From Tateyamaria pelophila (lineage in GTDB: Bacteria > Pseudomonadota > Alphaproteobacteria > Rhodobacterales > Rhodobacteraceae): 40,716 bases of DNA. Location of the stretch: NCBI RefSeq assembly GCF_019966495.1, contig NZ_JAIMIA010000037.1:1-40716 (forward strand), given 5' to 3'. The stretch's first letter is position 1. Each line of letters starts with the position of its first letter. A program made the translations under genes and the position numbers. Positions 20,406 through 37,130 of this stretch are shown in pieces. The notes under the pieces are model-generated. The model did no database searches. It worked only from the letters and a program-made list of their open reading frames with translations, and was not told the origin of the DNA.

Positions 20406-20425
20406 CGTGGCTGACCGCCACGTCA
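20403..20425. terminator. Hairpin shared by two convergent genes, containing both stop codons
   Basis: TGACGTGGC (20403-20411) and GCCACGTCA (20417-20425) form a perfect 9-bp stem with the loop TGACC. The TGA of the GST gene is the first three bases of the left arm, and the TGA of the MFS gene (minus strand) is the last three bases of the right arm. No T-run follows on either side. It probably acts as a two-way terminator or mRNA 3' end for both transcripts. Confidence 0.65.
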
Positions 20426-21604
20426 GCAGGACGGTGTTCCCTTGGCAAGTCGGCGGATCGCAATTCCGAACGTCACGGCCGTAAACACCGCACAAATCAG
20501 CGGGAGCGTGAAACTCTGACCAAGGTCATACAAAGCTCCGCCCACCCACGGAGCCAGAAATCCGGCGAGGCCCCAAGCGGTAAAAATCACGGCAAAGCTG
20601 CGTTGGAATGACAGGCTGCCAAAGGTAATCCGTGTCAGAACCGGGACGGTCGAAGCAACAAGGCCGTATCCCATCGCCACCAGAAAGAGGCCCAGACAGA
20701 CCGATGCCGGGCTGACTGGGATCAGGGCAAAGCTCAATCCGATCAACGTCAACGCCAGAGCTATACTCAAGATCTGCTCCATCTGCAGACGTTGGCTCAG
20801 CCCTGCGACGGACAACCTGCCGCCGGTGTTGCCGAGCGCAATCCCGGCCATGCCAACGCTGGCCAATCCGGCGTTTGCTCCGGCAGCATCCATCATCTTC
20901 GCCCCCAATCCGAGGACCATCAGACCGCTGAAAGAGCCCAGAGCGAAAAGTATCCAGATCAGCCGCATCATCCTTCGGGTGTACACATCCTGGCCGATGG
21001 CCGGGCCTCGGTTCTGCGCACTGACATGCTGCCGAGGTGCAGGCGTCAGCGCGGCAATCAAGGATGCCACAACAAGGACAACACCCAATGGAATCAGACC
21101 GGACAATCCCCAGCCCAAGCCATCAAGCTGGCGCCAAAGCGGGCCGAACACCGCGCCGCCCAGCCCAAAGGCTGCAACCATGGCAGGCGTTGCAACGGTG
21201 TGCCTGCGCATCCGGCCTGCGACGCCCAGTGCCGTGATATACACACCCCCACTGGCCGCGCCGAACCCGCCACTGAACCACAACAGGTAGGCCGGGAAGG
21301 ACGCGGCGTGCGCGGCCCCATAAACACACAGAGCCGCAATAAACCCGTAGGCGCCCACAATCCGGGGGCGCGCAGTCTCGATCGGGATCATCGGGGTCGC
21401 GATGACTGCGAGGGTAAAGCTGACGATTGCCAGGGAAAATACCAGACCGGTCTGCGCGGTCGTGACGGCAAACGTCGCTTGCAACGGCGCGATCAATGCG
21501 CTCCACCCATAGAGTGCGCCAGCGCAAAAGCAGACGAGGCCCGATGCCAGCACAGCACGCAAGCCGATGTCAGGCTGAAGGGCAGTTTGCTTTTCGGCCA
21601 ACAC
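20423..21604 (-). CDS. MFS transporter (OFA-like, probable organic anion carrier)
   Basis: This 393-residue protein has about 12 hydrophobic segments in two halves, typical of the major facilitator superfamily. The N-terminal pattern YGWSALIAPLQATF and the loop FGLGGAVFGPL resemble the oxalate:formate antiporter-like branch that moves organic anions. The start codon at 21604 is GTG (a TTG follows directly). It is divergent from the thiolase gene and the shared palindrome TTGTATCTACAA lies 31 bases upstream of its start, so it is probably controlled together with the thiolase-DUF35-ligase genes and may import the acid they act on. Confidence 0.88.
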   Translation of the reverse strand: MLAEKQTALQPDIGLRAVLASGLVCFCAGALYGWSALIAPLQATFAVTTAQTGLVFSLAIVSFTLAVIATPMIPIETARPRIVGAYGFIAALCVYGAAHAASFPAYLLWFSGGFGAASGGVYITALGVAGRMRRHTVATPAMVAAFGLGGAVFGPLWRQLDGLGWGLSGLIPLGVVLVVASLIAALTPAPRQHVSAQNRGPAIGQDVYTRRMMRLIWILFALGSFSGLMVLGLGAKMMDAAGANAGLASVGMAGIALGNTGGRLSVAGLSQRLQMEQILSIALALTLIGLSFALIPVSPASVCLGLFLVAMGYGLVASTVPVLTRITFGSLSFQRSFAVIFTAWGLAGFLAPWVGGALYDLGQSFTLPLICAVFTAVTFGIAIRRLAKGTPSC

Positions 21605-21634
21605 CAGGCCCCCACAGGCAACGCAGAAATCAAC

Positions 21635-21646
21635 TTGTATCTACAA
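21635..21646. promoter_or_regulatory. Predicted GntR operator TTGTATCTACAA (site 1)
   Basis: This perfect palindrome (TTGTA-TC-TACAA) lies between the divergent MFS and thiolase genes. The identical 12-mer occurs at 37286-37297 before the ABC operon. On the plus strand TTGTAT-N17-CAAGAT (21658-21663) could be the thiolase promoter, so the site would overlap its -35 element. On the minus strand TTGACC (21660-21655) could be the MFS -35 element, with the site just downstream. AT-rich TTGTA...TACAA palindromes are typical of GntR-type DNA-binding domains, for example the AraR operator. The candidate regulator is encoded at 25020. Confidence 0.7.
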
Positions 21647-21701
21647 ATATGTTAGGTCAAGATACCGGGGCAATCCAGTGAAATAATAGGATGCGCGCCA
21701 G

Positions 21702-22883
21702 ATGCACGATGCAACAGTCACAGTGAGCGGGGCTGCGGTGACGCCTTTCAATCGTCGCCGGGATGGCACTGGTCTGCGCGACTGGGCGGCATCCGCTTTT
21801 GATGCAGCGCTGGCGATGTCTGACCTGCACCGCGGCGACATTGATGCGCTCTATGTTGCATCCGAAAGCGACTTTTTTCACCTGCAACTGAACCCTGCCT
21901 CTGTCTTGGCGACCGAGCTTGGTTTAGCCGGCGTAAGTGCGACACGCTGCGAAGGCGGTGGCGCATCCGGGCAGCTGGCGGTACATGCCGCTTTGCGCGC
22001 TGTTCAATCGGGTGCCGCACGCCACGTGGCGGTTGTGGGGGTCGATCCGTCCGCTTCGTCACTGCCCGGCGATGATATCCGCACGCTTTATGGGTTTTCA
22101 TTTGATGCCTGGACGGATGGCATGACCGGGCTGACCTCCACCGCGCTCTACGCCCTGTCCTATCAGGCGTTCACAGAAAGCCATACGGTATCGGATTCTG
22201 ACCTTGCAACCGTCACGATCCAAAACCGCAGCAATGCCTGTCACAATCCCGGCGCACATTTGGGCCGTACGGACAGCGCCGAGGATATCGCGAACAGCCC
22301 GGTGATCGCGCATCCCTATCGCAGACTGCATTGCTCGCCGCTCTCCGACGGGGCTGCGGCCCTGATCCTCTCGGACACAAGCCACCTGCCGACAACACGC
22401 AAGTCCGCGCCGCGTGTGGTTGGTGCGGGTGCTGCAACCGATCACATGCATCTGGGCGCGCGAGCAAAGCCCGGCCTGTTCTCCGCAAAGACACGCGCCA
22501 TGCAACGGGCCTGCGCCGAGGCTGATGTGACACCCAGCGCCGTCAACTATGCCGAAATCTACGACGCATATGCGGGCGCGCAGCTTCAGGGGATCGCCGC
22601 ACTCGGACTGTCAGGCGACGTCATCCGCGATTTGAGGGCCGGTCGCTTTGCTCCGAACGGGGCGTGTCCAATCAACCTGTCAGGGGGCCTTATGGGCCAA
22701 GGAGCCCCTGTGGGCGCAACCGGCGTGGCGCAAACCGCCACCTGCGCCCTGATCCTCGAAGGGCGCTATCATCCCGACCTTCAGCCACAGACCCTGCCGC
22801 AGATCGCTTTGGCGGATACCCACGGCGGTATCTGCACCACATCGGCCGTCACCCTTCTTGCGCAGGGGGCGCGGGCTGCATGA
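21702..22883 (+). CDS. Thiolase-fold protein lacking thiolase catalytic residues (Ltp-like, candidate acyl-CoA aldolase)
   Basis: This 393-residue protein has the thiolase fold of the SCP2/lipid-transfer (Ltp) branch: ATRCEGGGASGQLAVHAA (about 80-97), NYAEIYDAYAG (282-292) and CPINLSGGLMGQGAPVGATG (322-341). The position that holds the acylated Cys in thiolases (x-C-A-S-G) is Gly 87, and the GHP histidine is Ala 335 (GQGAP). The usual HDxF is YDAY. True thiolase chemistry therefore looks impossible. Thiolase-fold proteins paired with DUF35 partners, such as steroid side-chain Ltp2, perform retro-aldol cleavage using tyrosines, which is the best precedent. The stop overlaps the DUF35 start (ATGA), supporting a heteromeric complex. 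Confidence 0.87.
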   Translation: MHDATVTVSGAAVTPFNRRRDGTGLRDWAASAFDAALAMSDLHRGDIDALYVASESDFFHLQLNPASVLATELGLAGVSATRCEGGGASGQLAVHAALRAVQSGAARHVAVVGVDPSASSLPGDDIRTLYGFSFDAWTDGMTGLTSTALYALSYQAFTESHTVSDSDLATVTIQNRSNACHNPGAHLGRTDSAEDIANSPVIAHPYRRLHCSPLSDGAAALILSDTSHLPTTRKSAPRVVGAGAATDHMHLGARAKPGLFSAKTRAMQRACAEADVTPSAVNYAEIYDAYAGAQLQGIAALGLSGDVIRDLRAGRFAPNGACPINLSGGLMGQGAPVGATGVAQTATCALILEGRYHPDLQPQTLPQIALADTHGGICTTSAVTLLAQGARAA

Positions 22884-23266
22884 TCTCCTACCCCCTCTCC
22901 CTCAACTACAGCCTCGCGCCCGGATGGCTTGAACCATTTGTCAGCGGGCTGGAAACCGGCGCGGCATTGGCACGGAAATGTGACGCCTGCGCCGCCGTCA
23001 GCTTTCCACCGCTGCGGGTCTGCCCGTGTGGCGCGACTGATGCAACGTGGGTCACCTTGCCCGGCACGGCACGGATAGAACTGCGTACATACGGGTCCGA
23101 TGGGGCGTTCGGCCTGGTCAGGTTTGACGGCGCGGACACCCGAGCAACGGTCAGGCTTGTCGATATCGCGCCAGACGAGGAGACCGGCCGGATCATGGCA
23201 TCTGATGCCCAACGGCCCATGCTTTGCCTGACAACCATGACCGCGAAAGAGGTTTCGCATGGATAG
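22880..23266 (+). CDS. DUF35 Zn-ribbon/OB-fold protein, partner of the thiolase-fold protein
   Basis: This is a 128-residue protein with a rubredoxin-like zinc ribbon (CDACAAVSFPPLRVCPCG, four Cys, residues about 35-52) and an OB-fold (about 55-125). DUF35 proteins form tight complexes with thiolase-fold enzymes and help bind acyl-CoA. The ATG overlaps the thiolase stop by 4 bases, which indicates translational coupling and probably equal amounts of both proteins. Its own stop overlaps the start of the acyl-CoA synthetase gene by 8 bases. Confidence 0.9.
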   Translation: MISYPLSLNYSLAPGWLEPFVSGLETGAALARKCDACAAVSFPPLRVCPCGATDATWVTLPGTARIELRTYGSDGAFGLVRFDGADTRATVRLVDIAPDEETGRIMASDAQRPMLCLTTMTAKEVSHG

Positions 23267-24920
23267 CACACTTAGGATCCCTGCGGACCGATTGAGCGAA
23301 CTGAACCTGCGCAGAGATGGCACAGGCTATTCTATCGCGTGGGCGCAAGACGCAAACCTGTTTCACATGACGGTCGGAAAGCATCTGGGCGCGGACACAC
23401 GCGACACACCGGCCATGATCTTTGAGGATTCCGCAGGTCGCATTCACGTGCAGAGCTTTGCGGAGGTCGACCGCGCGGCAACGAGCCTCGCGGCGACGCT
23501 GAAACGATTGGGATATGGGCGCGGCAGCCTGATTGGCATTCACACCGGACAGCATCCCGACACGGCTGTCGCGCATATGGCGGTGTGCAAACTGGGCGGC
23601 GTTGCCGTAACCCTGTCGCAGCTTTATGGCCCCGACACCCTCCGCCATGCGCTGAACGATTGCGACCTGCCGGTGATCCTGACCTCGCAGGACGCATGGG
23701 CCCCGATGCGAGCGACCGCGGCAGATAACTTTCCCAAGCTGCACCATGTCTTTTGTCGCGACCCGCAAGGCGATGACCATGATCTGGGTGCCGCCTTGGC
23801 GGCGGATCCTGCGGGGTTTGAACCGGATTATTCCGGAGCAGATGACCCTGCCCTTCTGATGTACACCTCCGGCTCAACCGGCAAACCCAAGGGCATCCTG
23901 CACGGGCACCGGATTTTGGCGGCCTATACGCCGTCGATCAATCTGTTCTTCAACTTGTCGGTGGAGGACCCCGACGCGGTGTATTGGTCGCCCTCTGACT
24001 GGGCGTGGGTCGGTGGGCTGCTTGACATGTTGTTTCCGGCCTGGATGGCGGGCCGCCCGATCGCGACGTCCCTGGACAGGTTTGTCGCCGAAGACGCCTA
24101 TGCCTTCATCAGCCGCCACAAGGTCACGCATACCTTTCTGGCCCCGACGGCGATCAAACGGCTGGCCCAGACGCCAGATCCCCATGCGGCCTATGATCTG
24201 TCGCTCCGGGTGATCTGCACCGGGGGGGAGGCACTGGCCGCTGAAACTCTGAACTGGGCGGAAAACAACCTCCGGGTCGTGTGCAACGAATTTTACGGAA
24301 TGACCGAGGTCAATCACCTCATTGGCAATTGTGCTGCGCTTTTCCCGCGCAGGCCGGGGTCGATGGGTCGCGCCTATCCAGGCCATGACGTGCATCTGGT
24401 GGACGCGGAGGGCAAGGACGTCGTGGACGGTGAGACGGGTGAGATTGTCACAACCCAAACATCACCGACCCGCTTTCTGGGGTATCTCAACAACCCGGAC
24501 AAAACCGCCGAGATGCAGCTTGGCCCCTATTTGCGCACCCACGACTTGGCGGTACGCGACGAAGACGGCTATTTCTGGTACAAGGGCCGATCTGACGATC
24601 TGATCAAGTCTTCAGGGTTTCGCATCGGCCCCACGGAAGTGGAGGAATGCCTGCTGGCGCACCCCAGTGTCGCCGAGGTCGCAGTCATCGCCAAACCGGA
24701 TGCGGAGCGTGGGTCAATCGTGAAGGCGGTCATAAAACTGCGCGCGGGTCATGTTGGTGACGCTGCGCTTTCAGAGGCTCTGCGCGCGCATGTGAAAGCG
24801 CGTTTGGCCGGATACAAGGCGCCCCGCGCCTTTTCTTACGTGGACCGGTTTGAAATGACCTCATCGGGCAAGATCAACCGCCGTGCCCTGCGCGCCGCCG
24901 AGGAAGAAGGAACCGTTTGA
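23259..24920 (+). CDS. AMP-forming acyl-CoA synthetase
   Basis: This 553-residue member of the ANL superfamily activates a carboxylic acid with ATP and CoA. Motifs are LLMYTSGSTGKPKGILHGH (about 204-222), FYGMTEVNH (about 346-354), DEDGYFWYKGRSDDLIKSSG (about 433-452) and the C-terminal SGKINRR with the catalytic lysine (about 536). Sequence style fits the medium-chain/benzoate-CoA ligase-like group with an Acs-like N-terminal extension, not acs itself, and the substrate cannot be read. It follows the thiolase-fold/DUF35 pair with overlapping frames, so it probably supplies their acyl-CoA substrate. Confidence 0.92.
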   Translation: MDSTLRIPADRLSELNLRRDGTGYSIAWAQDANLFHMTVGKHLGADTRDTPAMIFEDSAGRIHVQSFAEVDRAATSLAATLKRLGYGRGSLIGIHTGQHPDTAVAHMAVCKLGGVAVTLSQLYGPDTLRHALNDCDLPVILTSQDAWAPMRATAADNFPKLHHVFCRDPQGDDHDLGAALAADPAGFEPDYSGADDPALLMYTSGSTGKPKGILHGHRILAAYTPSINLFFNLSVEDPDAVYWSPSDWAWVGGLLDMLFPAWMAGRPIATSLDRFVAEDAYAFISRHKVTHTFLAPTAIKRLAQTPDPHAAYDLSLRVICTGGEALAAETLNWAENNLRVVCNEFYGMTEVNHLIGNCAALFPRRPGSMGRAYPGHDVHLVDAEGKDVVDGETGEIVTTQTSPTRFLGYLNNPDKTAEMQLGPYLRTHDLAVRDEDGYFWYKGRSDDLIKSSGFRIGPTEVEECLLAHPSVAEVAVIAKPDAERGSIVKAVIKLRAGHVGDAALSEALRAHVKARLAGYKAPRAFSYVDRFEMTSSGKINRRALRAAEEEGTV

Positions 24921-25019
24921 GGATGAAAAAGCATATTTTCCAAAACTATGGTCCCGCTTGTGAAGCGCACGTTACAGCAACTCCGACGCGGGTCGGGTCG
25001 GCTGGGGAAAGAGGGTAGC

Positions 25020-25766
25020 ATGCCATCAGAGGATCAGCCAAAATATGAACGCGCCTATCAGGTGATCGTGCAGCGCCTGAAATCCGGCCGCTACCCTGTT
25101 GGCGGGCGGATGCCGACGGAAAGCGAACTGGCAGCCCATTTCGATGTCAGTCGCGTCACGATCCGGCGCGCGCTCGATATGCTGGTGCAGGATGGCTATG
25201 TCGAAAGCAAGCAGGGCAGCGGGTATCGTGTATTGACACTATCGCCTGCGTCGGACACCTGCCTCACGTCCTTTACCGATGCGATGCTGCGGGCCGGGCA
25301 CGATCCGTCGTCGCGCTTCATGGCGCTGGATCATTTCGAGGCAGGCGCAGACGCACTCGCACATCTGCCCCCTGAAATGCAGGGTGTCGAGGTCAGCCGC
25401 ATCGTTCGACTGCGCCTTGTGGATGGGAAACCCAGCATGTTGGTCATGACCTACGCGCCGCGCAGCTTGCTCAAAGACGCCCGGCCCGAAGATTTCCCCG
25501 AACGCGGGCCGGGTCAGTCCATCCTGCGCATTCTCAGCGACCGGTTTCAACTCGACTGGTCTGCCGCCTGCGAAGACATCAGCCCCATTCTGGCGGACGA
25601 CGCCATGGCCGAAACCTTTGAGATCGAAAAGGGGCAGCCATTGTTGAAACAGGCCTGTTCCGCCTTTGATGATGCCGGGCGCATCGTCTTTCACGAAGAC
25701 GTCTACCGGGCGGGATCGGTCAGCTTCAACCTGTCGCAAACCGCCAGAACACCCCGCCATGTTTAG
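25020..25766 (+). CDS. GntR-family transcriptional regulator, HutC/UTRA type
   Basis: This regulator of about 248 residues has an N-terminal winged helix-turn-helix (about 8-75, with GGRMPTESELAAHFDVSRVTI and RALDMLVQDGYVESKQGSGY) and a C-terminal UTRA ligand-binding domain (about 90-240), which in this family senses small metabolites, often sugars or sugar phosphates. The ATG at 25020 is preferred because GAGGG precedes it and the wHTH then begins normally; an in-frame ATG at 24948 would add 24 unusual basic residues. It sits in the middle of the island, between the acyl-CoA genes and the nucleoside hydrolase, and is the obvious candidate to bind the two TTGTATCTACAA sites. Confidence 0.93.
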   Translation: MPSEDQPKYERAYQVIVQRLKSGRYPVGGRMPTESELAAHFDVSRVTIRRALDMLVQDGYVESKQGSGYRVLTLSPASDTCLTSFTDAMLRAGHDPSSRFMALDHFEAGADALAHLPPEMQGVEVSRIVRLRLVDGKPSMLVMTYAPRSLLKDARPEDFPERGPGQSILRILSDRFQLDWSAACEDISPILADDAMAETFEIEKGQPLLKQACSAFDDAGRIVFHEDVYRAGSVSFNLSQTARTPRHV

Positions 25767-25777
25767 GACCCAAAACC

Positions 25778-26860
25778 ATGACATTTGACCAATTGCCCCC
25801 CGAGCTGATGACCGAACGCCTCGCGCTGCCCACGGGCGACGGCCCTGTCCGATTGCTGATCGACACGGATGCGGCGAACGAAATCGACGATCAGTACGCT
25901 ATCGCATGGGCGCTGTTGTCGCCTGAACATATGACTGTCGAGGCTGTGACGGCCGTCCCGTTCTCCTTTGCGCATCACCAGCCGGAATTGCTGGCCGCAG
26001 AAAAAGCACTCGAAGAAGGATCCGCGCACAAGGAACATCTGGTGGGCGGTTTTCAGGGCTGGCTCGACCGGCTGCATGCGCAGGGACGACGTGCCGCTGA
26101 GTTGAACTTTGTCGGCCCGGCAGAAGGTATGGCCCTGAGCTACACAGAGATCTGCACGATCTATGACAAACTGGGCATGCCCCGTGACGGGCGCGTCTTC
26201 GAAGGCGCGACCCGCTATATGCAAAGCACGGACGACATCGTGGAGTCCGAAGCGGTCGATACGATCATCCGACTGGCGCGTGACGGAGATGCACCTCTGT
26301 ATATTGCCGCGATGGGATGCGTCACGAACATTGCCAGCGCGCTGCTGAAAGCGCCGGACATCATCGACCGCATCGTGGTGATCTGGACTTCGGCCTATCC
26401 ATCATCTGCACCGCATTGCAACCGCCCGTCACTGAACCTCGTCCAGGACGTGCACGCCTCCCGGCTGATCTTTGACAGCGGTGTGCCGCATATCTATCTG
26501 CCGGGCTATCACGTGGGCGCGCAACTCAAGATATCAGAGCCGGAAATGGCCGCTTTTGTCAAAGGTCGGGGGGCCATTGGAGACTACCTTTATCATCTTT
26601 ATACCAACAACCCGCTGCATGACATGTTCGCCATTACCAACCGCGACCAGCGCACGTGGGTGATCTGGGACATCATCAACATTGCGTGGCTGATCAATCC
26701 GGCATGGGTACCGACGCATCTGACCACGTCACCGGTTCTTGGTCAGGATCTGTATTGGGAGCACCTCGGCAACCGGCATCAGATGCGGGAAGCGCATGAC
26801 GTGCAACGCGATGAGATCTTTCTGGACCTGTATGCCAAACTGGCCCGCGCCGCTAGGTGA
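25778..26860 (+). CDS. Nucleoside hydrolase-family protein, atypical
   Basis: This 360-residue protein belongs to the inosine-uridine nucleoside hydrolase fold, which cleaves the N-glycosidic bond with a calcium-bound water. The calcium motif is DTDAANEIDD (about residues 28-37) instead of the usual DTDPGxDD, keeping the Asp positions but adding residues. GCVTNIASAL matches the usual GPLTN.A.AL. WDIINIAWLINP (about 291-302) supplies the late Asp but has Trp where the classical enzymes have the catalytic His. These differences suggest a modified nucleoside or another N-glycoside. It follows the GntR gene by 11 bases and overlaps the convergent isomerase gene by 8 bases. Confidence 0.88.
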   Translation: MTFDQLPPELMTERLALPTGDGPVRLLIDTDAANEIDDQYAIAWALLSPEHMTVEAVTAVPFSFAHHQPELLAAEKALEEGSAHKEHLVGGFQGWLDRLHAQGRRAAELNFVGPAEGMALSYTEICTIYDKLGMPRDGRVFEGATRYMQSTDDIVESEAVDTIIRLARDGDAPLYIAAMGCVTNIASALLKAPDIIDRIVVIWTSAYPSSAPHCNRPSLNLVQDVHASRLIFDSGVPHIYLPGYHVGAQLKISEPEMAAFVKGRGAIGDYLYHLYTNNPLHDMFAITNRDQRTWVIWDIINIAWLINPAWVPTHLTTSPVLGQDLYWEHLGNRHQMREAHDVQRDEIFLDLYAKLARAAR

Positions 26861-28287: not shown

Positions 28288-29052
28288 TCAAATCCGCAGA
28301 TAGCCGCCATCGACAATCAGCGACGTGCCCATCACATATTTTGCCAGATCGGAAGCCAGGTAGATGCATGCGTCCGCCACCTCTTCGGGTTCACCCCAAC
28401 GGCGGGCCGGGATCATATCGAGATATCCCTCGCCGGTTTCGGTGCCGATGACGGGGTCATCCTCGATGTTCATCTGGGTGCGCATGATGCCGGGATTGAC
28501 GTTGTTGACACGAATGCCCATCGGCCCCAACTCATCGGCCAGCGAATAGGTCAGCAGCCGCACCGCGCCTTTGGACATGTTGTAATGGCAAAACCCGCCC
28601 GTGCCGCGCATTCCGGCGATGGAGCACATGTTGATGATCACGCCGCTTTTGCGTTTCGCCATGGCCCGCGCGGCCATTTGCGCGCCGAAGAAAACGCTTT
28701 TGACGTTCACGTCCTGCATTCGGTGATAGGTTTCTTCGGTGGCTTCCAGAAATGGTTCCTTTTGCAGGATACCCGCGTTGTTCACCATGATGTCCAGCCC
28801 GCCCCAGTCTTCGGCTTCGGCGACGAGCGCTTGCAATTCCGTGATCTGACTGACATCGCATTTTACGAACCTGGCCATGCCTGGAGAATTCTCGTTGATC
28901 GCCTCCGCCGTCGGCACGCCGCCTTCACGGCCCATTTCTGACAGATCGGCCACGATCACCTTGGCCCCGTGTTTGACAAAGCCTTCGGCGATGGCCCGCC
29001 CGTTTCCGCTGGACCCGCCGGTGACGATGGCAATCTTGTCTTTCAAGAGCAT
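28288..29052 (-). CDS. Short-chain dehydrogenase/reductase
   Basis: This 254-residue classical SDR has the cofactor motif TGGSSGNGRAIAE (about 12-24; the usual TGxxxGIG carries Asn in place of Ile), Asp after beta-2 (VADLSEMG) favouring NAD(H), NNAGIL (about 90-95), the catalytic Ser in NMCSIAGM, and the YxxxK pair in HYNMSKGAV (about 157-165). The C-terminal GTSLIVDGGY is typical. The protein reduces or oxidises a polyol, ketose or aldehyde; in this operon it could act on the sugar or on the aldehyde released by the aldolase. It sits 9 bases after the aldolase gene and 13 bases before the isomerase gene. Confidence 0.93.
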   Translation of the reverse strand: MLLKDKIAIVTGGSSGNGRAIAEGFVKHGAKVIVADLSEMGREGGVPTAEAINENSPGMARFVKCDVSQITELQALVAEAEDWGGLDIMVNNAGILQKEPFLEATEETYHRMQDVNVKSVFFGAQMAARAMAKRKSGVIINMCSIAGMRGTGGFCHYNMSKGAVRLLTYSLADELGPMGIRVNNVNPGIMRTQMNIEDDPVIGTETGEGYLDMIPARRWGEPEEVADACIYLASDLAKYVMGTSLIVDGGYLRI

Positions 29053-29958: not shown

Positions 29959-29961
29959 CAC

Positions 29962-30978
29962 CTACACCCCCTGTGCGCTGATATGGGGAAAATGGGGTGC
30001 TTTGTGCGGCGCACGCCAAAGATCCAGCATTTGCTGGGTAGGTGTGAACAACGAAATGGAAAACCCGCCCATTTCCTGCGTGGTGGAATAGGACCCGATC
30101 ATCGGCGCAACGGGATTGATGCCCAACGCCCCGAGTTGCTGTGCAACCTCGCCGTACACCGTCAAAAGCTCCATCATTGTGGTGCCACCACTGCCGTTGA
30201 CCAACACGACGGTTGGTGTGCCAGACGCGATGGGCCCATCCTCCAGCAATGCGCCCAGCATATAGGACACAAGCTCTTTGACCGGTCCGACCTTGCGCCG
30301 TCCGACGCCAGGCTCGCCATGCACACCCATGCCAATGAAAATCTCGTCATCGGGCAGCGTGAACATCAATTCACCGGTCAGCGGGGATACGCCCGGAGAC
30401 ACCGCGGCGCCCAACGTTCGCGTCGCAGACCGCACGTCGACCCCCAGCGCCATCAGGTCGTCAATCCCCATGCCCTGTTCGGCCGCCGCCCCCAGAATCT
30501 TGTAAATGAACATGGTGCCCGCCGCACCGCGCCGATCTTCTTCCTCGACCTTCGGCGCCGAGGATATGTCGTCATACATCAACAAGGGCTGCACATTCAG
30601 CCCATTGTCCTGCGCCATCATCGCTGCACCATTGCCGTTGATCACGTCGCCTTCGTGTCGCGAGATCAGCAAAATGGCGCCGGCGTCGCCGCAGACCTCT
30701 TCGATGCCTTCGAGGATGGCATCAGATGCGGGTGCCGCAAACACGTCGCCCACAACGTTCGCGTCCAACAGCCCTTCGCCGACAAAGCCCATCGCAATCG
30801 GTTCATGACCGCAGCCATTGCCGATCAGCAAGGCAACCTTGCCGTCTTTGGTGCGCAAGGTCTTGCGGCGCACTACCCGTGGTGAAGCGCCCCGCATCAC
30901 GATATCCGGATAGGCCGCAACAAAGCCGTCGATCATGTCGTCCGGCATTGTTTCTTTGCTGTTATACAGTTTTTTCAT
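29962..30978 (-). CDS. Dihydroxyacetone kinase-type subunit DhaK (DAK1 domain)
   Basis: This protein of about 338 residues is the substrate-binding subunit of a two-part ketose kinase. DAK1 features are LLIGNGCGHEP with His 58, GDVFAAP, and GMGVHGEPG with His 220, the histidine that binds the ketone of the substrate covalently as a hemiaminal. The start ATG at 30978 gives the usual MKKLYN beginning; an ATG 12 bases earlier is in frame. It overlaps the dhaL-like gene by 4 bases. No PTS component DhaM is encoded here, so the pair should use ATP. Related DAK proteins phosphorylate not only dihydroxyacetone but also erythrulose and other ketoses, so the substrate is open. Confidence 0.92.
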   Translation of the reverse strand: MKKLYNSKETMPDDMIDGFVAAYPDIVMRGASPRVVRRKTLRTKDGKVALLIGNGCGHEPIAMGFVGEGLLDANVVGDVFAAPASDAILEGIEEVCGDAGAILLISRHEGDVINGNGAAMMAQDNGLNVQPLLMYDDISSAPKVEEEDRRGAAGTMFIYKILGAAAEQGMGIDDLMALGVDVRSATRTLGAAVSPGVSPLTGELMFTLPDDEIFIGMGVHGEPGVGRRKVGPVKELVSYMLGALLEDGPIASGTPTVVLVNGSGGTTMMELLTVYGEVAQQLGALGINPVAPMIGSYSTTQEMGGFSISLFTPTQQMLDLWRAPHKAPHFPHISAQGV

Positions 30979-31496
30979 CTGTCTCTCCAATCGGCATAGA
31001 GGGCCAAAAGTTCTGCTACGGATGTTGCTCCGGCATCCACATGGCCGACACCTGCCCCTTCGACATACCGCGCGCGTCCGCGTTTCGCGGCCATGTCACG
31101 CGTGGCGTCACGCCCCTGCGCGGCGGCAGTCGCTGCGGCCTGCGCCGTCGTCTCGGCGGCAGCCGGGATCAATGCATCGAGCATCGTCTTGTCTCCCGCC
31201 TTTGCCTGCCCCAGTTGCGCGATCTTGGCAGCGGCTTCCATTAATGCCTTATCAAGCGCACTGCCCCTCGAAGCCTGACCAAGCGCCCCGATCAATTGTG
31301 CAAATAGTGATCCCGAGGCCCCACCTGCAGTCTTGCGAAACGCTTTTTCCGGTGCGTCCTCTGCCGTGGCCGCCGCACGCAACCCTTTGAGGATCGTGGT
31401 CCCGTGGTCTCCGTCACCGGTGGCCGCATCCAGCGCGTTCAACTCTGCTTCCAGAGCCTCGAACCGTGTGACGCAAAGGGTGAGAAAGTCCTTCAT
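30975..31496 (-). CDS. Dihydroxyacetone kinase-type subunit DhaL (DAK2 domain)
   Basis: This 173-residue protein is the nucleotide-binding subunit of the ketose kinase. The Mg-ADP binding motif ATGDGDHGTT (about 25-34), GGASGSLFAQL, GDKTMLDALIPA and the closing GVGHVDAGATS are typical DAK2 elements. It is somewhat shorter than the usual 200-210 residues, mainly at the N-terminus, but all the motifs are present. Its start overlaps the epimerase stop by 4 bases, and its end overlaps the dhaK-like start by 4 bases, so the subunits are translationally coupled. Confidence 0.92.
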   Translation of the reverse strand: MKDFLTLCVTRFEALEAELNALDAATGDGDHGTTILKGLRAAATAEDAPEKAFRKTAGGASGSLFAQLIGALGQASRGSALDKALMEAAAKIAQLGQAKAGDKTMLDALIPAAAETTAQAAATAAAQGRDATRDMAAKRGRARYVEGAGVGHVDAGATSVAELLALYADWRDR

Positions 31497-32329
31497 CCAA
31501 ACGTCTTTTTCATAAAGGCAAGCGCCCGTTTTGCGGCATCGGTCGGGTCGGGTTCTATGTTGCGCCAGATATTGAGGTCGGCACTTGCAGGATTGCCGCC
31601 GATCACGAACATCTCCGCCACGATCCAGCCGTCATAGTGCGCATCTTCAAGCCCGGCCTTGACGTCATCCCAAGGCAGATGGCCCGATCCCGGCACACCG
31701 CGATCATTGTCAGAGACATGAAAATGGGAGAGCTTGCCTTTGGCAGAACCGATGGCTGCGCGGATATCCTTTTCCTCGATGTTGAGATGGAACGTATCCA
31801 GCAGTACGCCGATGCGTTCGGATTCTGCCGCGGTCGAAATCGCCACCGCCTCGGCCGCCGTATTCACCAGATCGGTTTCAAACCGGTTGAGCATCTCGAT
31901 CCCCAAGGTCACCTCATGGGCCGTCAACGTGTCGTGCAACTGCGCCAAAGATGCAGCCGAGCGTTCGGCACGGGCCGGTTTGTTCAGCGGATCAAACTGA
32001 CCCCAAGGGGCAAAAACCACACCCGCGAGGCCGCGCGATCCAATCCGCGCGGTCGTCGCGATGGCCCATTCGAGGTATGCGACGCCTGCGGCGCGGACAT
32101 CGGGATCGGTTGAGGTAATGTCCTTGTCCGGGGCGAGCCCGTCAGAACATGTCACTGCCAACCCGTGATCGCGCACCGCCTTGCCCAACGCCGCAGCCTT
32201 TTCATCGCTCATGCCAAGCAACGACACCTCGACCCCGTCAAACCCCAGATCGGCCACGGTCTTCAGGATCGGCGTAATCTCGTCGGTCCACCGCGCCTGC
32301 CAAAGCCCGGCATGTATCCCGTATTTCAT
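31493..32329 (-). CDS. Sugar isomerase/epimerase, psicose/tagatose 3-epimerase-like TIM barrel
   Basis: This 278-residue protein is an AP-endonuclease-family-2 type TIM barrel. The pattern of D-psicose/D-tagatose 3-epimerases is visible: Glu in GIEMLNRFET, Asp-x-x-His in LLDTFHLNIEE, His in HFHVSDNDRGVPGSGHLPW and a late Glu in IVAEMF, which together form the metal site. These enzymes epimerise free ketoses at C3. The starting MKYGIHAGLW is typical. It overlaps both neighbouring genes by 4 bases. In this operon it probably converts the ketose from the isomerase to the epimer used by the kinase. Confidence 0.9.
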   Translation of the reverse strand: MKYGIHAGLWQARWTDEITPILKTVADLGFDGVEVSLLGMSDEKAAALGKAVRDHGLAVTCSDGLAPDKDITSTDPDVRAAGVAYLEWAIATTARIGSRGLAGVVFAPWGQFDPLNKPARAERSAASLAQLHDTLTAHEVTLGIEMLNRFETDLVNTAAEAVAISTAAESERIGVLLDTFHLNIEEKDIRAAIGSAKGKLSHFHVSDNDRGVPGSGHLPWDDVKAGLEDAHYDGWIVAEMFVIGGNPASADLNIWRNIEPDPTDAAKRALAFMKKTFG

Positions 32330-33087
32330 ATGATCTCCTCCGTCAGGGTCAGGGCGGTGGCAAAGACCGCTTCGTTGCTGATCTCAAGTTCCGCCAGCCC
32401 CTCGGGCGACATCGGGTCCATGAAGCGCCGACCTGCCGTCAATTCATCCCAGACCACCAGCATCGACACCCCCGGCACACCGTATCTGGCCGCCGCCGCG
32501 AGTGTCGTTGCCGTTTCCATATCCACGCTCAGCAAGCCATCCTTGTGCCAGGCCTCATACATCTCGGTGGTCTCTGCAAAGAGCGATGAAAAGGTCACGT
32601 GCGGGCCGACATGGACTGTTCGATTGCGTGCGTTCAATGCATCTTTGGCGCGCGCTCTCCACGCGGGATCGGCGCGCACCAGATTGTCGATGACATAATG
32701 ATGCGCGACGCCATCCTTGCACCAGATCTTGTTCGGAAGGACGATATCGCCCGGTGCCAGATACGATTGCAGCCCCCCACATGTTCCGATCTGGATGACC
32801 AGTTTGCAGCCCAGCTGCGCGAAGATCTGTGATATTTCAACCGCGCGCGGCGCGCCGTAGGCCATGCAGAACACGACTTGCTTGTCCCCATGCCTGCCCC
32901 AGAAAATGTCGGGGAACCCAAGTTCGCGCACGTCGGTCAGCGCGCTGAGCCGGAGCGCCTGCCGCTCTGCCCGCCACCATGACCCTTCGAGGATCACGAC
33001 GTCGGGAACTTCATCCTCGGTCAGGTTCAAGCCGGATAACCATTCGGCGCGGGTCACATCAAAAATGGATCGGAAGTTGATACCCAT
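32326..33087 (-). CDS. Nucleoside phosphorylase-family protein (PNP/UDP type 1 fold)
   Basis: This protein of about 253 residues has the fold of purine nucleoside/uridine phosphorylases and MTA/SAH nucleosidases. IQIGTCGGLQ matches the IG.aGgl phosphate/base region and LLSVDMETATTLAAA the ribose-binding ME.E-like motif, with Thr at the second acidic position (META instead of MExE). WDELTAGRRF is in the place of the late base-contacting Asp. It could use phosphate or water. The ATG at 33087 overlaps the ATPase stop (ATGA); an in-frame start at 33099 is less likely. Its presence beside a nucleoside hydrolase strongly suggests a nucleoside-like substrate for the island. Confidence 0.85.
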   Translation of the reverse strand: MGINFRSIFDVTRAEWLSGLNLTEDEVPDVVILEGSWWRAERQALRLSALTDVRELGFPDIFWGRHGDKQVVFCMAYGAPRAVEISQIFAQLGCKLVIQIGTCGGLQSYLAPGDIVLPNKIWCKDGVAHHYVIDNLVRADPAWRARAKDALNARNRTVHVGPHVTFSSLFAETTEMYEAWHKDGLLSVDMETATTLAAAARYGVPGVSMLVVWDELTAGRRFMDPMSPEGLAELEISNEAVFATALTLTEEII

Positions 33088-34124
33088 CAGATCACCCACA
33101 AGGTCGTGCGCGGCAAATGGACCGGCAGCGTGTCGCCAACTCCATAGCTTTCGATCTCGTTCGGATTGACGACGGCTTCAACTTCGGTATCGCAGACGAT
33201 CAGTTTCAGCCGGGTTTGCGTGCCCAGATAGATGATATCGGCAATCTGAGCCGTCAGCAGGTTTTCCTGCTCCTGCCCGGATCCGATCCGCACGTTTTCA
33301 GGGCGGAACGTCAGCCTTCCGGTTCCGCTGACTGCGCCCGCCGGCAAAGCGAGTTTACCCAGAGCACACTCGAAACTGTGTCCGTCTGACGTGCCGGGAA
33401 TAAAGTTATGGCCCCCAAAGAACCGCGCTGTCGCTTCGTCCACGGGGCGTTTGTAAAAGACATCGGCCCGGTCATATTGCTTCATCTGACCATCAAGGAT
33501 CAGGGCGACGCGGTCGGCAAGCACGACGGCCTCTTCCTGATCGTGTGTGACAAAGATTGTGGTAATTCCCATCTCTTGCTGCAAGGAGCGGATCAGATCC
33601 CGCATCTCGAATCGCAGATGCGCGTCCAGATTGGACAGTGGTTCATCCAGCAAAAGCACATTGGGCTGAACGATCAAAGCGCGGGCCAGTGCAACACGCT
33701 GCTGTTGTCCGCCCGACAAGGCTGAAGGTTTGCGATCCCCCAGATGGGGCAGTTTGACCAGTTCCAGCATCTCGCCGACGCGGCGGCTGATCTCGGCAGG
33801 ATCGATCTTGCGCATCTTCAGGCCGAAACCGACATTCTCCGCAACGCTCATATACGGGAACAGCAGATAGTTCTGAAACACCATGACGACCCCGCGGTTC
33901 TCGGGCTTGTCGCGCAGCACAGACCGGCCATCGAACATCACGTCGCCGGACGTCGGCTCCAGCAACCCCGCGATCATCTTCATCGTTGTTGTCTTGCCGC
34001 AGCCGGATGGCCCCAGCAACGCGGTCAACTCACCGGTAGGAATTTCAAGCGACAGTCGATCCAGCGCGGGTGCCTCTGCGCCGGGATACACCTTGGTCAG
34101 CTCTTTGATGGATACATGGGTCAA
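33087..34124 (-). CDS. ABC transporter ATP-binding protein (PotA/CUT1-like, with TOBE domain)
   Basis: This 345-residue ATPase drives the importer. Motifs are Walker A GPSGCGKTTT (about 38-47), the Q-loop VFQNYLLFPYMSV, the signature LSGGQQQRVALARAL, Walker B LLLDEPLSNLD and the H-loop FVTHDQEEA. The C-terminal 110 residues form a TOBE domain typical of importers for polyamines, sugars and related solutes (LTFRPENVRIG). Overlap with the upstream permease gene is 4 bases. The order SBP-permease-permease-ATPase is complete. Confidence 0.95.
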   Translation of the reverse strand: MTHVSIKELTKVYPGAEAPALDRLSLEIPTGELTALLGPSGCGKTTTMKMIAGLLEPTSGDVMFDGRSVLRDKPENRGVVMVFQNYLLFPYMSVAENVGFGLKMRKIDPAEISRRVGEMLELVKLPHLGDRKPSALSGGQQQRVALARALIVQPNVLLLDEPLSNLDAHLRFEMRDLIRSLQQEMGITTIFVTHDQEEAVVLADRVALILDGQMKQYDRADVFYKRPVDEATARFFGGHNFIPGTSDGHSFECALGKLALPAGAVSGTGRLTFRPENVRIGSGQEQENLLTAQIADIIYLGTQTRLKLIVCDTEVEAVVNPNEIESYGVGDTLPVHLPRTTLWVI

Positions 34125-34945
34125 ATCTGGCCAAAGCCTCCGACTGCGCCCGAGCGACCCGACAAGTGCTTGGCTGTGAGTAACAGAATGATGATTCCGG
34201 GCAGGATATAGATCATACCAATGGCGCCTGTGATGTCGTTTCGCCCGGACGTTGCGAAGTTGAACAGAAGCAGCGGCAGCGTCTCGACCCTCCCGCCCCC
34301 GATGAGCAACGTGAGGATGTACTGGCTCCAGGAGACAAGAAAGGCAAAGAGCCCACCCACGATAATGCCCGGCCGGATTGCGGGGAGAGTCACATACCAG
34401 AATGTCTTGAGCGGCGATGCGCCAAGGCTGCGCGCCTGTGCCTCGAAGGCGGGGTCATAGTTGGAAAATATCCCCGCCATCACCAGAACCATATATGGCA
34501 ACGTCGGGATCAGGTGCACCAAGATCACGCCATGGACCGTGTTATTCAGGCCCATCGAGATAAAGACCGAATGGATGCCGAGGACGACGGCGATGCCCGG
34601 AACGATCGTCGGGGCAAGGATCATCAGCTCGACGATTTCCTTGCCCCTGAATTTATACATGCCCAGCGCACGACCGGCAGGCACGCCCACGAGGATCGAC
34701 AAAAACGTCGCCACCAGCGAAATCCAGATCGTCAGCCACAGGCTATCCAACACGCCGGCGGTATCTGACATCGCGTATTCCCAGGCCCGCATGGACCAGT
34801 TGCGCGGCAGCAGATCGGGATAGAACCAGCCTTTGGCAAAGGACCAGATGGCCAGCGGGATCAGCGGCAATATCAGCCAAGTGATCAGAACCGCGCCGGT
34901 CAGGACACGAAAGCTGCGCATGCCAAGGCTTTCTTGGGTTGCCAT
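34121..34945 (-). CDS. ABC transporter permease (PotC-like)
   Basis: This 274-residue inner-membrane protein has six predicted membrane segments and the cytoplasmic EAA loop (EAQARSLGASPLKTFWYVTLPAIRPG, about residues 168-193) that contacts the ATPase. Topology and size are like PotC-type permeases. It is 3 bases downstream of the first permease gene and overlaps the ATPase gene by 4 bases. Confidence 0.94.
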   Translation of the reverse strand: MATQESLGMRSFRVLTGAVLITWLILPLIPLAIWSFAKGWFYPDLLPRNWSMRAWEYAMSDTAGVLDSLWLTIWISLVATFLSILVGVPAGRALGMYKFRGKEIVELMILAPTIVPGIAVVLGIHSVFISMGLNNTVHGVILVHLIPTLPYMVLVMAGIFSNYDPAFEAQARSLGASPLKTFWYVTLPAIRPGIIVGGLFAFLVSWSQYILTLLIGGGRVETLPLLLFNFATSGRNDITGAIGMIYILPGIIILLLTAKHLSGRSGAVGGFGQI

Positions 34946-34948
34946 GTG

Positions 34949-35806
34949 TTATCCCCTGATCCGGCGGCGCGAATAGCGCACGTAAAAATAAATCATCACC
35001 GCGCTCAGCAAGGCGATCACGATAGCCATGGCTATGGCTTCGGGGCGCGCGGCCAGATCAACGTCGGTGTATTTGCGGTAGGCCAGCACCGGCAACGCGG
35101 CGGGGAAATTCGCTCCCAGAATGGCGGGTATTTCATAGGCGCCAAATGTGAAGGCGAAGACCATGACGCTGGCCGACAACACACCCGGAAAGATCAGCGG
35201 CAATAGGACATAGCGGAAGGTCTGCCATTTGCTCGCGCCCAGCGACCGCGCCACGCTTTCGTAATCCTCGCCAATCGACTGCATATTCGCCAGAACGATT
35301 ACGCCGATGAATGGAATCTCTTTCCATACGTATTGCAGAATGATGCCAATGGCATAGGGATCAAAAACCAGCGCCGGAAAGTCGGCCGGACTCGCGATCA
35401 GATTGAATTCGGCGGCCAGCCGGGCAAAGCTGCCCGATTGCGAAAACAGATAGAGCATGCCGATGGCACCGACCAGATGCGGCACGGTGAGGTTGATCTG
35501 GAACAGGAAATTCACCAAACCGCGCCCGATGAAACTGCGGCGCAACAACAGCGCCGCCCCGATGGCAAGCACCGAGGAAATCACGGTCGAGGTAAAGGCA
35601 ATGTGGAACGTCAGCGCGAAGGAGAGATAAAACTCCCGGTCAGTAAAGACCGAGATATAGGCGTCAAAATTCGGCTGGGTCAGGCCGATGACCGGCATAT
35701 AGTTGAAGCTGCGCATCGCTCCGATGGCGAGACCACCAAAGAACAGCACGACGATAATGAACATGGCCGGCAGCAGCAGCAAAAAGATCTTCATGCGGTC
35801 CGACAT
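34949..35806 (-). CDS. ABC transporter permease (PotB-like)
   Basis: This protein of about 285 residues has six predicted membrane segments and an EAA loop (YESVARSLGASKWQTFRYVLLP). It pairs with the second permease to form the import channel. Two starts are possible: GTG at 35818 and ATG at 35806. The ATG is preferred because GAGGTGTCAGG lies upstream at a workable distance. It is separated from the binding-protein gene by about 90 bases containing two hairpins, whereas all later genes in the operon are tightly packed. Confidence 0.93.
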   Translation of the reverse strand: MSDRMKIFLLLLPAMFIIVVLFFGGLAIGAMRSFNYMPVIGLTQPNFDAYISVFTDREFYLSFALTFHIAFTSTVISSVLAIGAALLLRRSFIGRGLVNFLFQINLTVPHLVGAIGMLYLFSQSGSFARLAAEFNLIASPADFPALVFDPYAIGIILQYVWKEIPFIGVIVLANMQSIGEDYESVARSLGASKWQTFRYVLLPLIFPGVLSASVMVFAFTFGAYEIPAILGANFPAALPVLAYRKYTDVDLAARPEAIAMAIVIALLSAVMIYFYVRYSRRRIRG

Positions 35807-35843
35807 AGCGCCTGACACCTCATCAGATATGCGGGGGAGTATG

Positions 35844-35878
35844 TGTCCACGGCACCCCGAATTTGGGCGCCGCGGACA
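35844..35878 (-). terminator. Second intercistronic hairpin after the binding-protein gene
   Basis: On the minus strand TGTCCGCGGCGCCC (35878-35865) pairs with GGGTGCCGTGGACA (35857-35844), a 14-bp stem with two G-U pairs and a 7-base loop. No U-run follows. It probably limits transcription into, or protects mRNA from decay beyond, the binding-protein gene, giving more binding protein than permease. Confidence 0.6.
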
Positions 35879-35907
35879 GGGTCAGCGGGAGGAGGAGTTA
35901 CTGACCC
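35879..35907 (-). promoter_or_regulatory. Stop-codon hairpin with CUCCUCCUCCC loop at the 3' end of the binding-protein gene
   Basis: On the minus strand GGGTCAG (35907-35901) pairs with CTGACCC (35885-35879). The 15-base loop TAACTCCTCCTCCCG holds the UAA stop codon and a CUCCUCCUCCC run complementary to Shine-Dalgarno sequences. This is the same loop chemistry as the CCUCCUCCC small RNAs near 37400. It could be a 3'-end stability element or the core of a small RNA released from the operon mRNA. Confidence 0.5.
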
Positions 35908-37130
35908 ACGTTCTCAAGCCAGCCTTTTTCGATGGCTGAAATCCAGGACGCCTGCAATTCCGGCAGGGCGGCCTTGGACAGTTCTTCGGCCGGTACGACG
36001 TTTGGATGCGACACGATGGTGGCAAAGTCGGCCTGCACTTCGGGGCTTGTGCGGCTCACCTCGATCGCAGGGGCAGCGCCCCAAACGGTTGGCAAGGCTT
36101 TCTGGTACTGGGCCTCACCGGACAAGAGCACGTTTTGCAAGACCAGTGCGGCCGCCTTGTTGGGCGAATTGAACGGAATGATCGTATAGTTCGTGTTCCC
36201 GATCGTGCCGTCCGTCAGGCCGTACCCCTGCGTGGTTGGGGGGAACACACCGTTTTCAATGTTCAGACCCACGCCCGAAGGTTCGTAGTTGAACGTCAGG
36301 TCAACTTCAGAGTTGGCATAAAGCTGCTCCATCGCAGAGATTGACGCAGGATAGGTTGCGCCCTCGCGCCACAGATAGGGCTCCATATCATTCAGGATTT
36401 GCCAGGTTTTCGCAGCGACCTCGTCGTACTTCGCCTGATCGAAATCTCCCAGCAAGCCGTCGACCCCGCCCGCTGCATGATAGAACACATGGCGGACAAA
36501 GACCGACCCATTGAAATCCGGTGGCGCCGGATAGGTGAATTTACCCGGATTTTCCCGAACCCAGTCAAGCAACTCCGCAATCGAGCGCGGCGGCTCAGAC
36601 GTCCGGTTGGTGTCATAGGCAAACGCAAACTGGGCCTTGGACCAGGGCACCTCGCAGCCATCGACCGGCACGCCAAAATCGTTTGCAATGGCCGGGTTGT
36701 CCCAGTCGATCAGCGCATTGTTCGGCAGAATGTCGGTATAGCCGCAATAAGCGAGCCCACCTTGCTTCATCGTGCGGAAGTTTTCGCCGTTGATCCAGAT
36801 CATATCGACGGACCCGGCATCCGTCACTCCGGATTCCTTTTCGCCCAGCACGATATTCACGGCCTCGACAGTGTCGCTCAGGCCGACGCGGTTCAGGGTA
36901 ATGTCATATTCATCCGACAAGATCCCACCGATAAATTCCGTCACATATTGGTTGATGTTGTCCGAGCCGCCCCACAGGAACCAGTTCACCTCGCCGCCAC
37001 GGGCCAGTTCAACCACTTCGTCCCATGACATGTTGTTCAGCGCATCACCGTCGGCAGTGTCCGCGAACGTGGCCGCCGGAGCCATCATGACGGTCGATGC
37101 CAAAAGGCACTTCATTAGTAAGTGTCGCAT
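35898..37130 (-). CDS. ABC transporter extracellular substrate-binding protein (PotD-like)
   Basis: This is a 410-residue periplasmic protein with a signal peptide (MRHLLMKCLLASTVMMAPAA, cleavage near TFA-DT, residue 24). The mature part has the two-lobe family 1 binding-protein pattern: WDEVVELARGGEVNWFLWGG, QYVTEFIGGIL, DMIWINGENFRTMKQGG. These Trp- and Asp-rich features occur in relatives annotated as polyamine-type or sugar-type SBPs, so the ligand cannot be inferred. GGGAGG lies 6 bases before the ATG. It is the first gene of the 11-gene operon and sits 156 bases from operator site 2. Confidence 0.94.
   Translation of the reverse strand: MRHLLMKCLLASTVMMAPAATFADTADGDALNNMSWDEVVELARGGEVNWFLWGGSDNINQYVTEFIGGILSDEYDITLNRVGLSDTVEAVNIVLGEKESGVTDAGSVDMIWINGENFRTMKQGGLAYCGYTDILPNNALIDWDNPAIANDFGVPVDGCEVPWSKAQFAFAYDTNRTSEPPRSIAELLDWVRENPGKFTYPAPPDFNGSVFVRHVFYHAAGGVDGLLGDFDQAKYDEVAAKTWQILNDMEPYLWREGATYPASISAMEQLYANSEVDLTFNYEPSGVGLNIENGVFPPTTQGYGLTDGTIGNTNYTIIPFNSPNKAAALVLQNVLLSGEAQYQKALPTVWGAAPAIEVSRTSPEVQADFATIVSHPNVVPAEELSKAALPELQASWISAIEKGWLENVGQ

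Follow-up and report, generated by a model that had tools for sequence, protein, structure and literature searches.

The stretch of DNA analysed here, hereafter the window, comprises 40,716 nucleotides of the Tateyamaria pelophila contig NZ_JAIMIA010000037.1 (assembly GCF_019966495.1). Within it, an 11-gene operon on the minus strand (positions 37130-26853) converges on a 5-gene operon on the plus strand (21702-26860), the two overlapping by 8 bases. This arrangement and its gene families had been described previously from the letters alone (the sequence-only reading), and both were confirmed. The two operons form a cassette of approximately 16 genes, which is common to many bacteria of marine groups and is plasmid-borne in some of them.

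The minus-strand operon begins with an ATP-binding cassette (ABC) importer, made up of a YnjB-like (PRK11622) solute-binding protein (35898..37130; NF008633, 461.5 bits, above the cut-off of 203), two permeases (34949..35818 and 34121..34945, both PF00528), and a PotA/PhnT-like ATPase (33087..34124; ABC_tran, TOBE_2). The model of the binding protein (pLDDT 86.7) adopts the fold of the wide PotD/2-aminoethylphosphonate/ferric/thiamin/sugar binding group, which names no single ligand; the protein has no sequence match in the PDB, and a search of the open-access literature by title found nothing on the substrate of YnjB. The importer genes are followed by those for an accessory PNP_UDP_1 family nucleosidase/phosphorylase-like protein (32326..33099; PF01048, 97.5 bits), a ketose 3-epimerase of the psicose/tagatose 3-epimerase family (31493..32329; NF051856, 224.8 bits, below the cut-off of 300), the ATP-binding subunit DhaL (30975..31496; Dak2, 88.1 bits), and the kinase subunit DhaK (29962..30978, with the start MKKLYN; Dak1, 311.8 bits). 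The operon is completed by a LacD-type class I aldolase (29062..29961; DeoC, 79.1 bits), which falls in the tagatose-bisphosphate aldolase group NF009498 (233.2 bits, above the cut-off of 184), an accessory short-chain dehydrogenase/reductase (SDR) (28288..29052; adh_short_C2, 203.7 bits), and a protein whose AlphaFold model has the L-arabinose/L-fucose isomerase fold (26853..28274).

The plus-strand operon encodes a thiolase-fold protein (21702..22883; Thiolase_C_1/Thiolase_N), its DUF35/rubredoxin-like zinc-ribbon partner (22880..23266, with the start MISYPL; zf-ChsH2, 26.0 bits, cut-off 23.2), an AMP-forming acyl-CoA synthetase (23259..24920; AMP-binding, 218.6 bits), a GntR/UTRA regulator (24948..25766; PF00392 and PF07702, both above cut-off), and a nucleoside-hydrolase-family protein (25778..26860; PF01156, 60.4 bits). 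Divergent from the thiolase-like gene, on the minus strand, lies a gene for a major facilitator superfamily (MFS) transporter (20423..21604; PF07690, 29.3 bits, below the cut-off of 33.4), for which the closest NCBIfam model, that of the L-lactate MFS transporter, gives 117.6 bits (cut-off 320).

Conservation of this gene set was assessed in two surveys. In the first, 295 genomes of the family were searched with the isomerase, the hydrolase (E 1e-60), the thiolase-like protein (1e-80), and the aldolase (1e-50), with only a few first-look candidates scored per genome. The isomerase query had matches in 38 genomes, of which 10, the window's own included, hold a close orthologue (at least 56% identity), the rest being 24-38% identical. 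Hydrolase orthologues occur in exactly these 10 genomes, and all of the thiolase-like and aldolase orthologues (8 and 7 genomes, respectively) lie among them as well. In the two genomes without a thiolase-like gene, G158 and G227, the cassette lies on short contigs and is cut off by the contig end, and in G014 and G227 there is no aldolase between the kinase and the isomerase.

In the second survey, a scan of named genomes with an alignment of the 10 isomerases gave 66 loci, many from genera known from the sea, with habitats taken from the organism names. The carriers include roseobacters, SAR116, Granulosicoccus-like Gammaproteobacteria, Hoeflea, Nitratireductor, and Devosia. Presence was tallied by tblastn, because our own codon-usage gene caller missed every gene in the AT-rich SAR116 loci and in places called antisense frames. 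By this measure, the isomerase is present in all 66 loci, the ABC ATPase in 58, DhaK and the synthetase in 57 each, the epimerase and DhaL in 56 each, the hydrolase and each of the two permeases in 55, the binding protein and the thiolase-like protein in 54 each, and the DUF35 protein, the aldolase, and the GntR regulator in 52 each; an aldehyde dehydrogenase gene was found in 25 loci, the SDR in 22, and the PNP-like and MFS genes in 17 each. Some of these matches are weak, and a stricter tally, with an identity floor of 45% (50% for the aldehyde dehydrogenase), retained the synthetase in 54 loci, the thiolase-like protein in 53, GntR in 41, the aldehyde dehydrogenase in 24, the SDR in 14, the MFS transporter in 9, and the PNP-like protein in 8. 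All eight core genes are present in 47 of the 66 loci; among the 55 loci that span at least 17 kb, 46 have the full set. Two layouts recur, with the hydrolase on the strand opposite to the isomerase in 24 loci and on the same strand in 31 (it was not found in 11). Beyond the block itself and two MFS families, namely the cluster of the window's MFS gene (14 of the 66 loci, plus the window) and a second one, C14 (16 of 66), no cluster of called genes appeared in more than 4 loci.

Three plasmids carry copies of the cassette, annotated piecemeal: one in Marinovum algicola DG 898 and one in Paracoccus seriniphilus, both with the aldehyde dehydrogenase gene, and one in Parasedimentitalea marina, without it. 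In addition, the pairwise identities of eight other genes track those of the isomerase (r 0.81-0.93 in a mirror-tree comparison not corrected for shared ancestry). The genes of the sugar half and of the acyl-CoA half are thus one conserved unit, and the association is strong without being absolute. Whether the two halves are ever found together in relatives was a point on which the sequence-only reading had hung its proposal, and both surveys show that they mostly are. That reading gave the acyl-CoA genes no role in the route; most carriers have them as members of the unit. Its placing of the PNP-like gene in the core does not fit either tally, nor does its use of the SDR as the general handler of the aldehyde, for which an aldehyde dehydrogenase is found in more loci, though not in the window.

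Some loci depart from the usual arrangement. In three of them (L065, L068, and L072), the acyl-CoA genes stand with a close isomerase, and the kinase, epimerase, and aldolase genes lie elsewhere in the same genomes. In three others (L064, L071, and L076), isomerase relatives of 56-67% identity occupy a second setting, together with an FMN/FAD oxidoreductase gene that was called by Pfam in L076 and by eye in L064 and L071. The latter two loci also have synthetase- and thiolase-like genes of a different kind (23-30% identity), and two of the second-setting genomes also hold the usual cassette or parts of it (L058 on one contig with L076, and L136 with L064). The L076 cluster also contains PEP-hydrolase-like and UPF0261 genes.

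Residues were counted in called genes aligned with those of the window, rows of odd length or of at most 32% identity being dropped. In the hydrolase, the aspartate cluster DTDxANEIDDQ (DSD in one row) and a later WD, which we take to be the calcium-binding residues, are kept in 46 of 46 rows. The spacing of this cluster is two residues longer than DxDxxxDD, as it is in four outside relatives (33-35% identity), one of which is encoded beside a nucleoside transporter, two beside ABC importers, and one beside neither. However, at Ser218 (motif PSLN), which is likewise invariant in 46 of 46, these four relatives all have a glutamate instead (xEFN), and three solved nucleosidases align with AEFN. 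This glutamate is presumably the residue that contacts the ribose 5'-hydroxyl. According to the available passages of one study, a nucleoside hydrolase acts very poorly on substrates lacking the 2', 3', or 5' hydroxyl (PMC8910321). The replacement of Glu by Ser therefore makes plain ribonucleosides an unlikely substrate, and unmodified pentose nucleosides are not supported as the natural one.

The isomerase has no Pfam family, and its only NCBIfam match, to the sulfoquinovose isomerase SftI, does not reach the curated score (103.5 bits against 700). Its assignment comes from the AlphaFold model (pLDDT 92.9); against the PDB there was no sequence match, and a profile search gave sub-threshold matches only. 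In one such sub-threshold alignment, the invariant Glu289 and Asp313 align with the ATEND and FADV motifs of L-fucose isomerase, and His433 is invariant as well; Glu, Asp/Glu, and His are presumably the metal ligands of L-arabinose and L-fucose isomerases. The other sugar enzymes keep the residues expected of their families: the Glu, Asp, His, and Glu taken to be the metal ligands of the epimerase (51 of 51), the presumed substrate-binding His of DhaK (51 of 51), and what we take to be the Schiff-base Lys of the aldolase (43 of 43). The GDGDHG motif of DhaL, with its Asp triad, is kept in 46 of 46. No match to DhaM (dha_pts), which a control search detected in 3 of 14 genomes, was found in the window's genome, and direct use of ATP by the kinase is therefore expected. 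These observations support the order of hydrolysis, isomerization, C3-epimerization, ketose phosphorylation, and cleavage to dihydroxyacetone phosphate (DHAP) that had been proposed earlier.

Two related clusters provide a further indication of the substrate. Both L133 and L134 enclose a gene for a GH51 arabinofuranosidase-like protein (5550-7511 and 5213-7177, respectively), and in both there is another isomerase, 33-34% identical. With 245.6 bits, the GH51-like protein of L133 stays below the cut-off of 625, and it matches solved arabinofuranosidases. A furanoside is therefore indicated.

In the thiolase-fold protein, the nucleophilic Cys of thiolases is replaced by Gly87, the HDCF motif by Y287-D-A-Y, and the His of GHP by Ala335; these replacements also appear in phmmer alignments with the closest solved relatives, 7yvy and 6esq. 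All 42 rows, which derive from the 54 tblastn-positive loci plus the window, have the Gly, Tyr, and Ala, and in the motif YD[A/S/P]Y the YD and the final Tyr are likewise kept in 42 of 42. With both the nucleophilic Cys and the catalytic His missing throughout, thiolase chemistry is rejected. Among the systems treated in the accessible passages of PMC12329534, Ltp2 (YDHF) and Sal (YDCY) are thiolase-fold retro-aldolases bound to DUF35 proteins, with the motif Tyr acting as the base. By analogy of motif and partner, the thiolase-fold protein of the cassette is a probable DUF35-dependent acyl-CoA retro-aldolase. Its DUF35 partner keeps four Cys in 27 of 27 rows.

The synthetase has the motif YGMTE, to which FWQTE corresponds in the window's true acetyl-CoA synthetase; the motif aligned one residue out of register and was read by the shared TE. 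Gly occupies the Trp site in 49 of 52 rows, the other 3 having gaps, and we take this exchange to widen the acyl pocket. Elsewhere in the window (9916-14691, plus strand), genes for an acetyl-CoA synthetase, an adenylate-kinase-like protein, and an acetate-permease-like symporter stand in a row, as judged by eye from their translations; this acetyl-CoA synthetase is the one used in the comparison above.

Together, the enzyme families and their conserved residues lead us to propose that the block is a single catabolic cassette in which a sugar-splitting sequence feeds an acyl-CoA-splitting one, and that it acts on a compound containing a furanose, with a glycone other than plain ribose; we place the probability of this serial route at about 45%. 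The ABC importer would take up the compound, and the nucleoside-hydrolase-family enzyme, with a PNP-like or GH51-like gene nearby in some carriers, would free the aldose, which the isomerase would convert to the ketose. The epimerase would then invert C3 to the configuration accepted by the LacD-type aldolase. The presence of an epimerase would be explained if the sugar set free were ribo at C3 and aldolases of this type required the opposite configuration. The ketose would be phosphorylated at C1 by the ATP-dependent DhaKL and split by the class I aldolase into DHAP and an aldehyde, which would be oxidized by the dedicated aldehyde dehydrogenase encoded in 24 of the 66 loci, and elsewhere presumably by unlinked enzymes. 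The resulting acid would be activated by the acyl-CoA synthetase, and the thiolase-fold protein with its DUF35 partner would cut the product by a retro-aldol rather than a thiolytic reaction, giving a short acyl-CoA and a second aldehyde. A serial route of this kind would explain why the aldehyde dehydrogenase gene adjoins the aldolase gene in one layout and the synthetase gene in the other.

Several observations weigh against this proposal. First, a plain pentose would give glycolate, which offers no bond for retro-aldol cleavage, and the serial route therefore needs a sugar that is longer than a pentose or modified at C5. Second, the window has no linked aldehyde dehydrogenase gene, and its genome has no close orthologue (best 44%). 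Third, in the accessible passages of PMC12329534 the general acid is Tyr344 in Ltp2 and Cys304 in Sal, and Ala or Ser at the essential Cys304 abolished the activity of Sal; in the 42 rows from the cassettes, the Cys304 position holds Ala in 26, Ser in 15, and Pro in 1. The likeness to Ltp2 and Sal is thus good for the base and the DUF35 partner, while no counterpart of the general acid was identified. Finally, the acyl-CoA half may not be universal among carriers. A thiolase-like orthologue (E 1e-60) was absent from 3 of the 9 isomerase genomes checked whole (G301, G302, and G305), two of which have a divergent isomerase, DhaK, and aldolase. An aldolase match (E 1e-10) was absent from 3 of 6 genomes checked (G305, G307, and G308), two of which keep the thiolase-like gene in the locus, and a further two of the six have only relatives of 39% identity. 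All of these are metagenome-assembled genomes (MAGs), and some of the absences may therefore be assembly gaps. In the locus L109 (7208-13899), a divergent cassette (regulator, isomerase, epimerase, DhaL, and DhaK) adjoins two genes that, by eye, resemble those for the E1 alpha and E1 beta chains of a thiamin-dependent dehydrogenase; its genome has no thiolase-like match at E 1e-60.

A more specific form of the serial route, in which the substrates are C5-modified or chain-extended furanosides, is a doubtful extension of it. In such compounds, C1-C3 would leave as DHAP, and C4 and C5 with their attachment would be oxidized, loaded onto CoA, and cut by the retro-aldolase. The loss of the hydrolase Glu, the open-chain substrate that DhaK presumably demands, and the enlarged synthetase pocket would all fit a substrate of this kind. 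Chain-extended nucleosides are one candidate class. A second and much less likely class comprises the ribofuranosides of seaweeds that bear arsenic. Chemically, an acetyl-CoA derivative could conceivably lose its arsenic group by a hetero-retro-aldol reaction, but no arsenic family appears among the conserved gene families of the 66 loci (no separate search for arsenic genes was made), and nothing on genes for arsenosugar degradation was found among the papers listed by an open-access literature search. Gonyol and carnitine-like beta-hydroxy acids were also considered, and a literature search on gonyol gave nothing useful.

The coupling of the two halves across genomes would also be expected if they acted in parallel on a two-armed conjugate, that is, a furanoside of a beta-hydroxy acid. 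Here, the hydrolase would split the conjugate, the isomerase, epimerase, DhaKL, and aldolase would convert the sugar arm to DHAP and glycolaldehyde, and the acid would pass through the acyl-CoA synthetase to the retro-aldolase. Such a scheme accounts for the same genes without a longer or C5-modified sugar, and it is consistent with the furanoside indicated by the GH51-like genes, with the two divergent MAGs that keep sugar-half genes without a thiolase-like orthologue, and with the split genomes, in which the acyl-CoA genes (L065, L068, and L072) lie apart from the kinase and aldolase genes (L133, L134, and L135). Yet in these same split genomes it is the acyl-CoA genes, not the sugar genes, that the close isomerase accompanies, the exchange of Glu for Ser in the hydrolase points to the glycone rather than the aglycone, and we know of no marine compound of this type. 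The serial route is ranked above the two-armed conjugate, which we consider improbable, if still deserving of attention.

Another possibility is that unmodified nucleosides or other N-ribosides are degraded through a pentose to DHAP and glycolaldehyde, with the acyl-CoA genes serving a separate function and adjacent by chance. The gene families fit such a route, and so does the company of the hydrolase's outside relatives, one of which (33% identity) lies beside a nucleoside transporter and a PfkB kinase on a Klebsiella plasmid, and two (34-35%) beside ABC importers in Ensifer and Mesorhizobium; moreover, the abstract-level account in PMC9700705 has halophilic archaea converting the ribose of guanosine to DHAP and ethylene glycol. 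Chance adjacency, however, sits poorly with the co-occurrence of acyl-CoA and sugar genes across genera and on three plasmids, and plain ribosides with the Ser in 46 of 46 hydrolases and with the Gly in the synthetase pocket, whose meaning is assumed. A plain pentose as the whole story was set aside because the acyl-CoA genes are coupled and the hydrolase residue is changed, and this route as such is rated distinctly unlikely.

Least probable is a sulfosugar pathway of the sulfo-Embden-Meyerhof-Parnas (sulfo-EMP) type, with the synthetase acting on a sulfonated acid, which is rejected since the isomerase scores far under the cut-off of SftI, its only named family match. Distant isomerase relatives in the family do adjoin LacD-type aldolase genes, in one locus together with a ribokinase-like kinase and an aldehyde dehydrogenase, but a sulfonated two-carbon acid would offer the retro-aldolase no C-C bond, no sulfoquinovosidase or sulfonate gene is found among the conserved families (no separate search was made), and we know of no sulfoglycolytic route with a nucleoside hydrolase and a C3-epimerase. 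The cluster in L041 (5789-15748), with a distant SftI-like isomerase (260.3 bits), a LacD-type aldolase, a ribokinase-like kinase, a semialdehyde-dehydrogenase-like gene, and a TRAP transporter, has the look of a sulfosugar-type cluster and belongs to this family as well.

Apart from the cassette, the window contains a match to the Ruegeria small RNA Cis8_sRNA (749-876, plus strand; Rfam RF02646, 77.7 bits, gathering threshold 58), which suggests a roseobacter-like host. It lies opposite a long minus-strand frame (397-1917) whose translation resembles a tripartite tricarboxylate transporter.

Since the carriers of the block belong to marine groups and some of them have it on plasmids, the substrate is probably a compound common in the sea or in algae and their hosts, and one not yet named as a food of bacteria. 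The operon's own binding protein and GntR regulator make the question of the substrate testable. Should the serial route be correct, it would add a route of sugar breakdown with retro-aldol cleavage of an acyl-CoA as its last step, and should the C5-modified form of it hold, a C-C cleavage otherwise known from steroid side chains would finish the breakdown of a sugar.

Comparison with known systems shows where the cassette departs from them. The DHAP shunt for 5'-deoxyadenosine and methylthioadenosine also converts 5'-modified nucleosides to DHAP and a modified aldehyde, as in the proposed route; it differs in that isomerization follows the action of a kinase or phosphorylase on the aldose C1 and the aldolase is a FucA-like class II enzyme, and it is not known to include a C3-epimerase or acyl-CoA steps. 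The non-carboxylating pentose bisphosphate pathway of halophilic archaea likewise takes a nucleoside sugar to DHAP and a two-carbon product through a ketose-1-phosphate aldolase, whereas neither a C3-epimerase nor DhaKL, a LacD-type aldolase, or an acyl-CoA step is mentioned in its abstract (PMC9700705). Similarly, the passages available on sulfo-EMP and sulfo-EMP2 describe an isomerase, a C1 kinase, and an aldolase leading to DHAP and an aldehyde, and the sulfo-EMP2 isomerase belongs to the FucI family; in contrast, sulfo-EMP relies on other kinase families (SqiK is PfkA-like) and on the class II aldolase SqiA, and these passages name no nucleoside hydrolase, C3-epimerase, DhaKL, or retro-aldolase (PMC9594981).

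For the acyl-CoA half, Ltp2-ChsH2 and Sal-Shy share with the cassette the thiolase fold, the DUF35 partner, a YDxF/Y Tyr in place of the thiolase His, and a Gly near the beta-hydroxyl, and as described in part of PMC12329534 they cleave steroid side chains and pair with a DUF35-bearing hydratase. In the cassette, by contrast, no hydratase family is conserved, DUF35 is a protein of its own, and the motif has Ala, Ser, or Pro in third place rather than His or Cys. No described pathway with this gene combination, or with a DUF35 retro-aldolase-like protein beside sugar genes, was found in the open-access literature, as judged by titles and abstract openings, which leaves most subscription journals outside. 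Each of the enzyme families is known; it is their combination, a variant of sugar catabolism to DHAP, that appears to be new.

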